DNA from: Loktanella atrilutea
Lineage (GTDB): Bacteria; Pseudomonadota; Alphaproteobacteria; Rhodobacterales; Rhodobacteraceae
DNA length: 64,000 bases
Direction of reading: 5' to 3'
Assembly (NCBI RefSeq): GCF_900128995.1
Contig: NZ_FQUE01000003.1
Location: forward strand, 310,001 to 374,000
Shown: piece by piece, positions 5,989 through 8,569 of the stretch
Layout: every line of letters starts with the position of its first letter
Numbering within the stretch: the stretch's first letter is position 1
Notes under the pieces: generated by a model
Told to the model about the DNA's origin: nothing
Seen by the model: the letters and a program-made list of their open reading frames with translations, nothing else
Database searches by the model: none
Made by a program: the position numbers and the translations under genes

Positions 5989-6618
5989 ATGACCCGTATC
6001 CTTCCCGGCGTGATCGCCATGGCCGCCATCGTCGTGGCCTCCAACATCCTCGTGCAGTTCCTGATCGCCGACGGCCTGCTGACCTGGGGCGCCTTCACCT
6101 ATCCGCTGGCCTTCCTCGTCACCGATCTGATGAACCGCATCTACGGCGTCTCGGCCGCCCGCCGCGTCGTGCTGGTCGGCTTGATCGTCGGCATCGTCTG
6201 TTCCCTGATCGGCAGCCAGATCCAGCTGGAATTCGGCCCCGCCGTCCCGGTCCGCGTCGCCGTCGCCTCGGCCACTGCCTTCGGCGTCGCTCAACTGCTG
6301 GACATCGCCGTCTTCAACCGCCTGCGCATGGGTGTCTGGTGGGTGGCGCCGCTCGGCTCGACGCTGGTGTCCTCGGTTGTGGACACGGTCATCTTCTTCT
6401 CCATCGCCTTCGCCGCCACCTTCAACGGTATCAGCGCCGTCGCGGCGGATCAGGTCGTCTGGGCGCAAGAGGCGGTCCCCTTCCTCGGCCACGGCCCGGT
6501 CGTGCCGCTCTGGATCTCGCTCGCCGTGGCGGACTGGTCGGTCAAGATCGCCGTGGCCCTCGTCGCCCTTGTGCCATTTCGCCTCATTGTTGGGCGGGTC
6601 ACACAGGCGCGCGTTTAA
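5989..6618 (+). CDS. yhhQ: VUT family queuosine-precursor transporter
   Basis: A 209-residue membrane protein with about six hydrophobic segments. It has the VUT/YhhQ (COG1738) features YPLAFLVTDLMNRIYG (residues about 38-53) and WVAPLGSTLVSSVVDTVIFF. YhhQ imports preQ0/preQ1 for the queuosine tRNA modification. I chose the ATG at 5989 because the encoded MTRILPGVIAMAAIV... begins the first membrane helix; the open stretch upstream is not protein-like. A 7-bp GC hairpin with a 3-nt loop (5935-5951) lies in the leader, but I see no recognised preQ1 aptamer. Confidence 0.85.
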   Translation: MTRILPGVIAMAAIVVASNILVQFLIADGLLTWGAFTYPLAFLVTDLMNRIYGVSAARRVVLVGLIVGIVCSLIGSQIQLEFGPAVPVRVAVASATAFGVAQLLDIAVFNRLRMGVWWVAPLGSTLVSSVVDTVIFFSIAFAATFNGISAVAADQVVWAQEAVPFLGHGPVVPLWISLAVADWSVKIAVALVALVPFRLIVGRVTQARV

Positions 6619-6642: not shown

Positions 6643-6662
6643 TTGACATACACCATATGTGT
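6643..6662 (+). promoter_or_regulatory. Candidate -35 and operator-like palindrome before the RNA unit
   Basis: A consensus TTGACA lies at 6643-6648 and is followed by an imperfect palindrome (ACAC-CATATG-TGT, about 6650-6662). No good TATAAT is seen at 17 nt. This is a plausible but unproven promoter/operator for the short transcript ending at 6873. Confidence 0.3.
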
Positions 6663-6706
6663 GCCACCCTCCGGATTAGGCGAAACATTTGAAAGGAGGT
6701 GATCCA

Positions 6707-6763
6707 GTGCATCATGAAGTTCTGGAGACGTGTGTCGGGACAGCTTGGGGGGTTCTGATCTAG
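6707..6763 (+). CDS. 18-residue small ORF behind an extended Shine-Dalgarno
   Basis: A GTG at 6707 opens an 18-codon frame (HHEVLETCVGTAWGVLI after the start) that ends at TAG 6761-6763. GGAGG (6695-6699) is 7 nt upstream, an ideal spacing, inside the 17-nt match to the 16S tail. A competing ATG at 6714 gives a 14-residue basic peptide but is too far from the site. The peptide is not recognised. The rare, near-maximal ribosome site argues that initiation matters here, either to make the peptide or to place a ribosome for regulation. Protein status is unproven. Confidence 0.35.
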   Translation: MHHEVLETCVGTAWGVLI

Positions 6764-6838
6764 GGCAGCCCCTGGGTTATGAAACCCTCAGGTGGGTGGC
6801 CCACAGGGCACCTAACCGACCCACCTCCGATATTCAGG

Positions 6839-6873
6839 AAAGGGCTATCCCATCGCCGGGGTAGCCCTTTTTT
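6839..6873 (+). terminator. Intrinsic terminator of the small RNA unit
   Basis: The stem AAAGGGCTA (6839-6847) pairs with TAGCCCTTT (6862-6870), with extra CC/GG pairing inside. A run of Ts follows (6868-6873). This is a strong Rho-independent signal on the + strand. It separates the RNA unit from arfB. Confidence 0.85.
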
Positions 6874-7003: not shown

Positions 7004-7429
7004 ATGGCCGACGACCTTTACATCACCCCCACCATCACCCTTCAGGGGTGGGAGATGACGGAGCAGTTCACCCGCGCCTCCGGTCCCGGCGGGCAGAACG
7101 TGAACAAGGTCTCGACGGCGGTAGAGCTTCGGTTCGAAGCGGAACGCTCGCCGTCGCTGCCCGACCCGGTAAAGACGCGGCTGAAGCGGCTGGCGGGACG
7201 GCGCTGGACTGTGGACGGCGCGCTGGTGCTCTTCGTGCAGGACACACGCTCCCAGGCCCGCAACCGCGAACTCGCCCGCGACCGCCTCGCCGAACTGGTG
7301 CTGAGCGCCACCGAGAAGCCCAAGCGCCGCGTGGCGACGAAGCCGACCTACGGGTCCGTCAAGCGCAGGCTGAAGGCGAAGAAGGTCAGGGGCGAGGTGA
7401 AGGCGTTGCGGGGGGCGGTGGAGGAGTGA
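7004..7429 (+). CDS. arfB: Alternative ribosome-rescue peptidyl-tRNA hydrolase ArfB
   Basis: A 141-residue release-factor-like hydrolase that frees nascent chains from ribosomes stalled without a stop codon. The catalytic GGQ lies at residues 29-31 in SGPGGQNVNKVSTAVELRF. The C-terminal tail (about residues 103-135) is strongly basic (KPKRRVATK, KRRLKAKKVR), the helix that ArfB inserts into the empty mRNA channel. Length and layout match ArfB/YaeJ. Its position just downstream of an RNA unit complementary to the 16S 3' end is curious, but a terminator at 6839-6873 separates the two transcripts. Confidence 0.92.
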   Translation: MADDLYITPTITLQGWEMTEQFTRASGPGGQNVNKVSTAVELRFEAERSPSLPDPVKTRLKRLAGRRWTVDGALVLFVQDTRSQARNRELARDRLAELVLSATEKPKRRVATKPTYGSVKRRLKAKKVRGEVKALRGAVEE

Positions 7430-7461
7430 GAGTCGCCTGTACTGATCAAGCCGTTGATTGC

Positions 7462-7484
7462 GAATCAATTTAAAAAATTGATTC
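7462..7484. repeat. 23-nt perfect palindrome with two GANTC sites
   Basis: Two 10-nt arms (7462-7471 GAATCAATTT and 7475-7484 AAATTGATTC) flank AAA. The outer ends are GAATC and GATTC, which are CcrM methylation sites. A third GATTC is at 7499-7503. It lies between arfB and the Ntn-hydrolase gene, in AT-rich DNA. It could be an operator or a hairpin terminator for arfB. Confidence 0.6.
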
Positions 7485-7526
7485 TACGTACTTTTTCTGA
7501 TTCTATTAGAGGTGGTGGAGGATTTT

Positions 7527-8375
7527 ATGACGGTATGTGTTGCTCTGAAGGTCCACGACTGCATCGTCTTTGCTGCAGATAGTGCCACATCCCTCACCGG
7601 CATAGATGCCGCGGGAAATCATCACGTGGCCAACATTTATGATCACGCAAATAAGGTATTCAACCTGCGCAAAGATCTTCCAATTGCTGGAATGACTGCA
7701 GGGATCGGAAATTTTGGGATGTGTTCGATATCGACTATCTCGAAAGACTTGAGGCGTCTTCTGAGTTTGGATGATACTGAATATTCTGTGAATAAACAAG
7801 ATTATACCATCGAAGAGGTCGCGTATAAAGTTCGTAAGTACCTTTTCGAGGATCGCTTTGGCAAACTTGCCGATAAACCAAGTGGTACTTTTCAATACTG
7901 GGTGGGTGGGTATTCGTCTGGGCAGGACCTAGGTGAAATGTGGAAAATTCAAATTCAAGACGGTGACTGTCCTAATCCAGTCTGTGAGGCTCCTCGAGAT
8001 GTCTCCAGTATGATTAGTTGGGGCGGGCAAACTGAGGCAATTAATCGTATTCTTCTGGGTTATGGCCAAGGGCTGCCGGACGCCCTACTTTCAGCCGGTC
8101 TTCCCCAAGAAAAACTTGGCGAGTGTTTGCGACACGTTGCCGCACACACCCAAGCTGGGTTAGCGAATCCTGCCATGCCTACGCGTGATGCTATTGATTT
8201 AGCTATCTTTTTGGCCGAAGCGCAAAAGCAGTTTGTTCGCTTTTCAATCGGTTCAAATACTGTAGGAGGCGACCTCGATGTCGCCACAGTAACGAAGCAC
8301 GAAGGTTTTAAGTGGATACGGCGTAAGCATTATTATTCACGTGACCTGAACCCCCTGGAGACTGACCATGCCTAA
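7527..8375 (+). CDS. Proteasome-beta-like Ntn hydrolase (Anbu/HslV-type fold)
   Basis: About 282 residues. After Met removal the N-terminus is Thr1 (TVCVALKVHDCIVFAADS), and numbering from Thr1 puts Asp at exactly position 17, as in proteasome beta and HslV. A lysine in NKVFNL (about position 42) aligns with catalytic Lys33 after a 9-residue insertion. The next strand, AGMTAGIGNFG, matches the conserved glycine strand. So a threonine-protease-type Ntn hydrolase is likely; substrate unknown. The C-terminal third has no obvious match. The ATG at 7527 is preceded by GGTGGAGG. The GTG at 7512 would bury the Thr and is disfavoured. Base composition is clearly AT-richer than the neighbours, suggesting transfer. 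The last 8 nt overlap the next small gene. Confidence 0.6.
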   Translation: MTVCVALKVHDCIVFAADSATSLTGIDAAGNHHVANIYDHANKVFNLRKDLPIAGMTAGIGNFGMCSISTISKDLRRLLSLDDTEYSVNKQDYTIEEVAYKVRKYLFEDRFGKLADKPSGTFQYWVGGYSSGQDLGEMWKIQIQDGDCPNPVCEAPRDVSSMISWGGQTEAINRILLGYGQGLPDALLSAGLPQEKLGECLRHVAAHTQAGLANPAMPTRDAIDLAIFLAEAQKQFVRFSIGSNTVGGDLDVATVTKHEGFKWIRRKHYYSRDLNPLETDHA

Positions 8376-8538
8376 TAGAGATCAAGTGACACTTTTTTAT
8401 GATTATATGCCAAAGGCGAACGCAAGCGTACCCCCGATACGCGAGCTTTCAACTTCTTCGGCGCAAGCACAGCGACTTATTGAGTCACCTAAAGTTGAGG
8501 AAAAAAAAGACCTTCTGACAAATTTAAATTTCGGGTGA
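8368..8538 (+). CDS. Small 56-residue partner protein of the Ntn hydrolase
   Basis: The ATG at 8368 overlaps the end of the Ntn-hydrolase gene by 8 nt and is preceded by CCTGGAG with 8-nt spacing. The protein starts MPNRDQVTLFYDYMPK and ends KKDLLTNLNFG. It is polar, has no membrane segment or cysteine, and has a charged stretch (PKVEEKKD) near the C-terminus. Composition is as AT-rich as the upstream gene, and the overlap indicates translational coupling. I do not recognise the family. It could be a substrate, inhibitor or adaptor of the hydrolase; that is inference from position only. Confidence 0.55.
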   Translation: MPNRDQVTLFYDYMPKANASVPPIRELSTSSAQAQRLIESPKVEEKKDLLTNLNFG

Positions 8539-8569
8539 TCCTGCTGGTCGAGTTGCAAAAGCCCTATTT

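Follow-up and report, generated by a model that had tools for sequence, protein, structure and literature searches.

A conserved short RNA unit of Rhodobacteraceae with an extended Shine-Dalgarno sequence and an 18-codon reading frame

Organization of the locus

The window, a 64,000-nt stretch of the Loktanella atrilutea contig NZ_FQUE01000003.1, contains a unit of about 190 nt that lies on the forward strand between two genes of the same orientation. The upstream neighbor (5989..6618) is a yhhQ-like gene for a queuosine precursor transporter (Vut_1/TIGR00697), and the downstream neighbor (7004..7429) is arfB, which encodes a ribosome-rescue hydrolase; the initial annotation had already named this gene, and the NCBIfam ArfB equivalog model recognizes it at 179.9 bits (cut-off, 100). 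The unit itself consists of an extended (super-) Shine-Dalgarno sequence (SD), an 18-codon ORF, a predicted three-way fold and a terminator. The super-SD, GAAAGGAGGTGATCCAG, is complementary to the 3' end of 16S rRNA and occupies positions 6691..6707, as re-reading of the coordinates confirmed; through its final G, it overlaps the GTG start codon of the ORF (6707..6763; VHHEVLETCVGTAWGVLI), which closes with TAG at 6761-6763. This frame, noted earlier as leading out of the complementary stretch, was read directly from the sequence. The intrinsic terminator, a hairpin followed by a T-tract (6839..6873), is evident from sequence and fold, and the minimum-energy fold has a z-score of -4.69, with none of 200 shuffles as stable, in agreement with the original description of a compact structured unit with its own terminator. 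The hairpin at 6839-6873 is not among the calls of a consensus terminator scan.

A -35-like element, TTGACA, is present at 6643..6648 (forward strand), and the transcript probably starts near position 6680; a consensus promoter scan returned no full promoter. In the survey of 128 loci described below, TTGAC is found 28-58 nt 5' of the super-SD in 92 loci.

Two further features of the promoter region were observed. In some relatives, an imperfect inverted repeat, such as ACACAAAATCTGTGT or GCCGCGATATCTGCGGC, follows TTGACA by eye (6643-6665 in the window; loci L008, L012 and L014), and its arms seem to co-vary, so that an operator is a possibility. Three relatives (L014, L018 and L022) carry TGTGGATAA, which we take to be identical to the DnaA-box consensus, just 5' of the super-SD.

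Complementarity to the 16S rRNA tail

The initial annotation described the 17-mer as the reverse complement of the 16S rRNA 3' tail, and the match is exact against CCTGCGGCTGGATCACCTCCTTTCT, the 16S end of a relative from the same family (G010). The small-subunit rRNA model gave no matches in the L. atrilutea assembly itself, in a search whose success among control genomes was limited to 9 of 14. Within the 4.2-Mb assembly, AAAGGAGGTGATCC occurs exactly at a single place, with one further place at one mismatch; by an arithmetic estimate, about 0.0005 exact 17-mers are expected by chance in a genome of such size. Positions 3-11 of the super-SD (AAGGAGGTG) are invariant in all 128 loci; position 12 varies, with A in 89 loci, G in 33 and C in 6.

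The duplex between the super-SD and a free 16S tail is predicted to yield -29.7 kcal/mol, and opening of the whole 17-mer is predicted to cost 10.8 kcal/mol on average (6.7 at the window locus). Because the duplex energy greatly exceeds the opening cost, the ribosome should, according to these calculations, easily take the SD strand. Such an easy win speaks against a sharp sensor unless the closed state is stabilized in some additional way, and the 30S subunit may even win under all conditions, leaving nothing to be sensed. With 15-17 paired bases, almost no spacer separates the duplex from the start codon, and a fully paired RNA should fail to initiate.

Conservation among Rhodobacteraceae

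The suggestion of related sequences in other Rhodobacterales holds true within the family of the source genome. Among 61 genomes (its own and 60 relatives), a BLAST search detected the unit in 26, all from the same family. The covariance-model search proposed at the outset was performed with a model, R1, built on 21 of these 26 sequences; of the 296 family genomes that are at least 90% complete, R1 matches 257, with one match per genome except for two in G199, and these matched genomes represent 256 of the 295 sampled genera. A search of plasmids for the unit gave no match.

For the survey, L001, L002 and duplicate genomes were set aside beforehand, and of the 130 loci that entered, two (L061 and L131) were excluded because the script mislocated them, although R1 matches both. 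The remaining 128 loci comprise BLAST-found and class-sampled ones and the best-scoring of the listed R1 matches, a selection in which weak forms are under-represented; nine belong to the genus of the window.

The family also includes divergent forms. Among the 20 listed family genomes that lack an R1 match, four (G024, G084, G111 and G127) are matched by the Rfam model RF01867 (see below); in the divergent units of G127, G024 and G111, the frame has 24, 31 and 25 codons, respectively.

The 18-codon reading frame

The ORF is 18 codons long in 125 of the 128 loci (17, 22 and 24 codons in the remaining three), starts with GTG in 126 and with ATG in 2, and has TGA, TAG or TAA as codon 19 in 125; these counts, like those for the fold, are inflated by kinship among the loci. 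TGG was never observed at codon 19, compared with 19.9 of 125 expected if the second and third bases were independent. In all 26 aligned rows, the stretch from the super-SD to the stop codon is gapless, and gaps appear 3' of the stop in every row. Judging by these sequence patterns, the frame looks clearly to be kept by selection.

Whether the encoded peptide is itself the product is less clear from the same patterns. The peptides share the motif V-S-R-x-x-L-E-x-x-V-G-T, and there is synonymous variation at codon 2 (TCT, TCG or TCA in 109 of 128 loci) and codon 11 (GGG or GGA in 122 of 128). The fixed residues L6-E7 and V10-G11, however, overlap helices P1a and P1b of the predicted fold; codons 13-18 are far more variable.

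The predicted fold

Three helices make up the predicted three-way fold. In P1, GGAGGTG of the super-SD (6695..6701) pairs with CACCTCC (6822..6828), which has the same sequence as the 16S anti-SD. P1a joins TCCAG (6703..6707) to CTGGA in codons 6-7 of the ORF (6722..6726) and encloses the start codon, and P1b joins GTCGG in codons 10-11 (6734..6738) to CCGAC (6816..6820); all strands are on the forward strand. Among 21 sequences, 98.6% of the cells of these helices are paired, compared with 38-56% in slid controls, and two pairs have changed on both sides. In 101 model-aligned rows, the fraction is 98.9% against 25-67% in slid controls, and 6 of 17 pairs show two-sided (compensatory) changes, a number equalled by none of 500 shuffles; because the 101 rows, which include one weak reverse-strand match within L027, were fitted to the covariance model, these pair counts are biased towards structure.

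The pairing of the SD was compared with that obtained after shuffling of the downstream sequence in 60 loci, drawn from the 118 in which the terminator was also located. The mean pairing probability of the SD stretch is 0.88 in the native sequences versus 0.69 in the shuffled ones, with the native value higher in 57 of the 60 loci, and that of GGAGG is 0.94 versus 0.75. For positions 12-15, the values are 0.75 and 0.67, so the gain from the start-codon hairpin is small; the pair between positions 14 and 35 that is expected from P1a is predicted for 51 of the 60 loci.

The fold also bears on how much of the 17-mer serves 16S pairing. Since UCCAG is also needed for P1a, not all 17 nt must act as an SD. 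Position 12 is unpaired in the fold and faces a U of 16S rRNA, so its restriction to A or G in 122 of the 128 loci is a weak sign that pairing with 16S rRNA might extend beyond the SD core.

Relation to the CC2171 RNA

No Rfam family matches in the window at curated thresholds. At relaxed thresholds, RF01867 (CC2171) matches the unit at full length (6683..6868, forward strand; model positions 1-159 of 159) but scores 46.1 bits, below the cut-off of 75; in a search of the whole genome the unit is the only match (E-value 2.9e-8). Across the class, 66 of 289 genomes have an RF01867 match, including 5 Rhodobacteraceae, and 10 exceed the cut-off; in the family, 77 of 100 genomes are matched at an E-value of 0.001 and none of the 100 exceeds the cut-off. 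To our knowledge, CC2171 is a small RNA of Caulobacter to which no function has been assigned.

We examined 29 class loci, namely, the best-scoring RF01867 matches from other families, with the window left out. In all 29, the super-SD stands one base before the start codon, an arrangement to which the model itself contributes in part, and the frame that opens there runs for 18-26 codons to a stop codon that the model does not impose. CC2171 thus resembles the unit in the super-SD block GAAAGGAGGUGAUCC one base before the start codon (the block is part of the model itself), the short frame, the 3' intrinsic terminator, the size and the full-length match. In contrast, the Rfam structure of CC2171 features a long-range helix between CAUUGUC at the start of the frame and GACAAUG before the terminator; a GACAAUG-like strand is present in none of the 128 family loci and in 13 of the 29 class loci, so that it is not universal among the class matches either. 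The family loci instead carry a CACCUCC-like strand before the terminator in 119 of 128 cases, compared with none of the 29 class loci. The peptides of the class relatives also differ from the Rhodobacteraceae peptide, and three of them (22-25 aa) matched no Pfam or NCBIfam family. The unit therefore appears to be a divergent CC2171-related branch with a different fold, outside RF01867 under its current definition.

In the 29 loci outside Rhodobacteraceae, the pairing probability of the SD is 0.62, compared with 0.70 in shuffles, with the native value higher in 7 of the 29. The SD in these loci is predicted to be no more hidden than in shuffled sequences, so the closed state would not be class-wide, and the lock looks like a trait of the Rhodobacteraceae branch. 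Inspection by eye had suggested that a mimic of the 16S tail conceals the SD throughout the class, an idea that these predicted folds do not support.

By eye, the CC2171-type frames of L067, L068, L074 and L075, all from other families, contain a stretch that resembles the 16S 3' end (CTGG.. followed by GCCTC); in the predicted folds, this stretch does not conceal the SD.

Genomic neighborhood

The synteny that the initial annotation named as potential support is conserved in large part. The yhhQ gene, counted on the basis of four queries, is found upstream in 121 of the 128 loci, and arfB begins within 400 nt downstream in 105. The arfB linkage does not extend to the other 23 loci, three of which have arfB at 632-731 nt and one of which is at a contig end; yhhQ is kept in 22 loci without arfB within 400 nt. 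A search of 19 genomes that have the RNA without an adjacent arfB located the gene elsewhere in 18; in 6 of these, it is on the same strand at 1.6-2.7 kb downstream. Of the 20 listed family genomes without an R1 match, 12 have arfB. One of these 20, G127 (L337), carries its divergent super-SD unit, with the 24-codon frame, directly 5' of arfB, which indicates that the arfB neighborhood is not restricted to the locked fold.

At the class level, none of the 29 loci has an adjacent arfB. The nearest downstream ORF is on the same strand in 15, on the opposite strand in 12 and absent in 2, according to a crude longest-ORF method that miscalled arfB itself in L214.

Proposed mechanism and alternatives

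We put at about even the chance that the unit is a small mRNA or regulatory RNA of about 190 nt with its own terminator and probably its own promoter, that it represents a CC2171-related branch and that its ligand is the 30S subunit. Conservation, the fixed ORF with its stop codon, the covarying fold and the energies provide the computed support, and we infer transcription, 30S binding, translation and an output of the unit. The free RNA would be closed, with GGAGGUG paired to CACCUCC, UCCAG to CUGGA around the GUG, and GUCGG to CCGAC. A free 16S tail would pair with the super-SD, open the three helices and load a ribosome, which would translate the 18 codons and halt just 5' of the next hairpin, so that the RNA would alternate between a closed and a ribosome-held state. 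The candidate outputs are action in trans of the freed CACCUCC anti-SD strand on mRNAs, titration of 30S subunits, or readthrough into arfB.

A wider reading, to which we hold only tentatively and which as a whole is possible rather than probable, places the unit within a class-wide alphaproteobacterial device in which an RNA that is fully antisense to the 16S 3' tail has the 30S subunit as ligand. Under this reading, Rhodobacteraceae would have added a lock made of split copies of the 16S tail (CUGGA and CACCUCC), and the RNA would gauge free 30S subunits and, when opened, expose the anti-SD strand to other mRNAs or permit arfB readthrough.

The position of the unit before arfB suggests a different role, namely, that of a ribosome-controlled attenuator in which translation of the 18-codon leader would set readthrough of the terminator, so that rescue capacity would track ribosome availability. 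A short ORF does precede the terminator and arfB, with arfB at most 400 nt downstream in the 105 loci, and the adjacency recurs with the divergent RNA form of G127. The distance from the stem end to the estimated arfB start was measurable in 97 loci and is 35 nt or less in 44 of them, which leaves scant room for a promoter, so arfB at these loci probably requires readthrough. However, no antiterminator signal was detected in 118 loci (the 128 minus 10 in which the script found no motif or no terminator). GCAGCCC, the single candidate element, located after the stop codon, pairs better with the terminator arm of its own locus than with those of other loci in 51% of cases, compared with 47% and 45% for control stretches, with arm boundaries roughly set by script; antitermination of arfB via this element, convincing by eye in a few loci, was rejected on the strength of this own-versus-other comparison. 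The mean probability of the terminator stem is 0.894 in the free RNA, 0.895 with a ribosome at the stop and 0.911 with a ribosome at the start, from equilibrium folding that gives values near 0 in some loci, probably owing to wrong arm boundaries. Across arfB distances, the T-tract (mean T, 5.3, 5.3 and 4.8) and the hairpin energy (-26.8, -27.9 and -29.0 kcal/mol) differ little, in a comparison made without a statistical test. Furthermore, the linkage is not constant, the RNA being kept in the 19 genomes without an adjacent arfB. We thus regard the attenuator as unlikely; readthrough to arfB may matter locally but is unlikely to be the conserved purpose. The early proposal of a super-SD leader peptide gene accordingly survives in part: the conserved separate unit, the super-SD and the selected ORF are best described as a small mRNA, whereas the role of an arfB leader is weak, given that the RNA is kept in the 23 loci that lack arfB within 400 nt and that no antiterminator signal was found. 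The anti-16S decoy put forward in the same annotation is a possible role.

Pairing of the RNA with the entire 16S tail might instead keep 30S subunits out of initiation, making the unit a non-productive trap. The predicted duplex energy of -29.7 kcal/mol, the complementarity that directly abuts the start codon, and the A or G at the unpaired position 12 in 122 of 128 loci, both able to pair with the U of 16S rRNA, are all compatible with such a role, but a pure trap would need neither the conserved stop codon nor the conserved length of 18 codons, and we consider it distinctly unlikely. The shared V-S-R-x-x-L-E-x-x-V-G-T motif and the synonymous variation at codons 2 and 11 could point to the 18-residue peptide itself as the product. 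Here, the coincidence of L6-E7 and V10-G11 with P1a and P1b, the much greater variability of codons 13-18, and the different peptides of the class relatives, with no Pfam or NCBIfam family matched by the three that were scanned, weigh on the other side and make this explanation improbable. Finally, strong SDs do occur, and the complementarity might be a chance match or an ordinary, albeit unusually strong, SD; with conservation in 257 of 296 genomes and only one exact place in its own genome, this hardly merits credence. We favor the reading of the unit as a small mRNA or regulatory RNA that engages the 30S subunit.

Comparison with known systems

A precedent for an extreme SD on one particular mRNA is the extended SD of rpsU in Flavobacterium johnsoniae and other Bacteroidota, through which ribosomes lacking bS21 are described to mediate autoregulation (PMC9976891). 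As in the unit, one special mRNA pairs over a long stretch with the 16S 3' tail; unlike that system, which is from another phylum, the unit contains an 18-codon frame without a known product in place of rpsU. Pos19 of the related bacterium Rhodobacter sphaeroides is likewise a small RNA with a small ORF, which is translated there, but its length is 219 nt, its ORF spans 150 nt and it is part of the RpoE regulon, and the abstract of that report mentions no super-SD (PMC5036791). The rnTrpL/peTrpL system of Sinorhizobium (PMC10117765) also has a short leader ORF, carried by a terminator-derived small RNA; it differs in that its ORF is leaderless and part of a tryptophan attenuator before trpE, whereas the unit shows no antiterminator signal. 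Two previously predicted non-coding RNAs of Caulobacter are reported to be translated (PMC4117421), and PMC11701678 and PMC5596092 appear to concern the CC2171 RNA. None of the conserved intergenic sRNAs of Paracoccus in the available text of PMC5107571 could be linked to this locus, and the available parts of PMC5082802, PMC2873474, PMC11005374 and PMC4809877 contain no link to it. Literature searches with sequence strings of the unit found no paper that contains them, and searches for a function of RF01867 found no such report. Within the reach of these searches, there is no earlier description of a super-SD combined with a selected ORF, of the Rhodobacteraceae branch or of its lock.

RF01867 is filed as a small RNA, and its matches, like the Rhodobacteraceae relative, are complementary to the 16S tail over an exceptional length and carry a selected short ORF; probably, all of these are ribosome-engaged RNAs. 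A family without a known function would thereby acquire a testable hypothesis, the sensing or buffering of free ribosomes by bacteria, with a model that is represented in 256 of the 295 sampled genera of one family and usually adjoins the ribosome-rescue gene arfB.

Additional observations

Right at the stop codon of the ORF, GGGCAGCCC is present in the window (6763-6771), and a similar form is seen in many relatives. In two divergent forms (L337 and L339), the resembling sequence GGGCAGCC is in frame and supplies the codons for G-Q-P. Downstream of arfB, the region 7430-8540, which is possibly acquired DNA, appears by eye to be richer in AT and contains a 287-codon frame that resembles an N-terminal-nucleophile hydrolase by eye.
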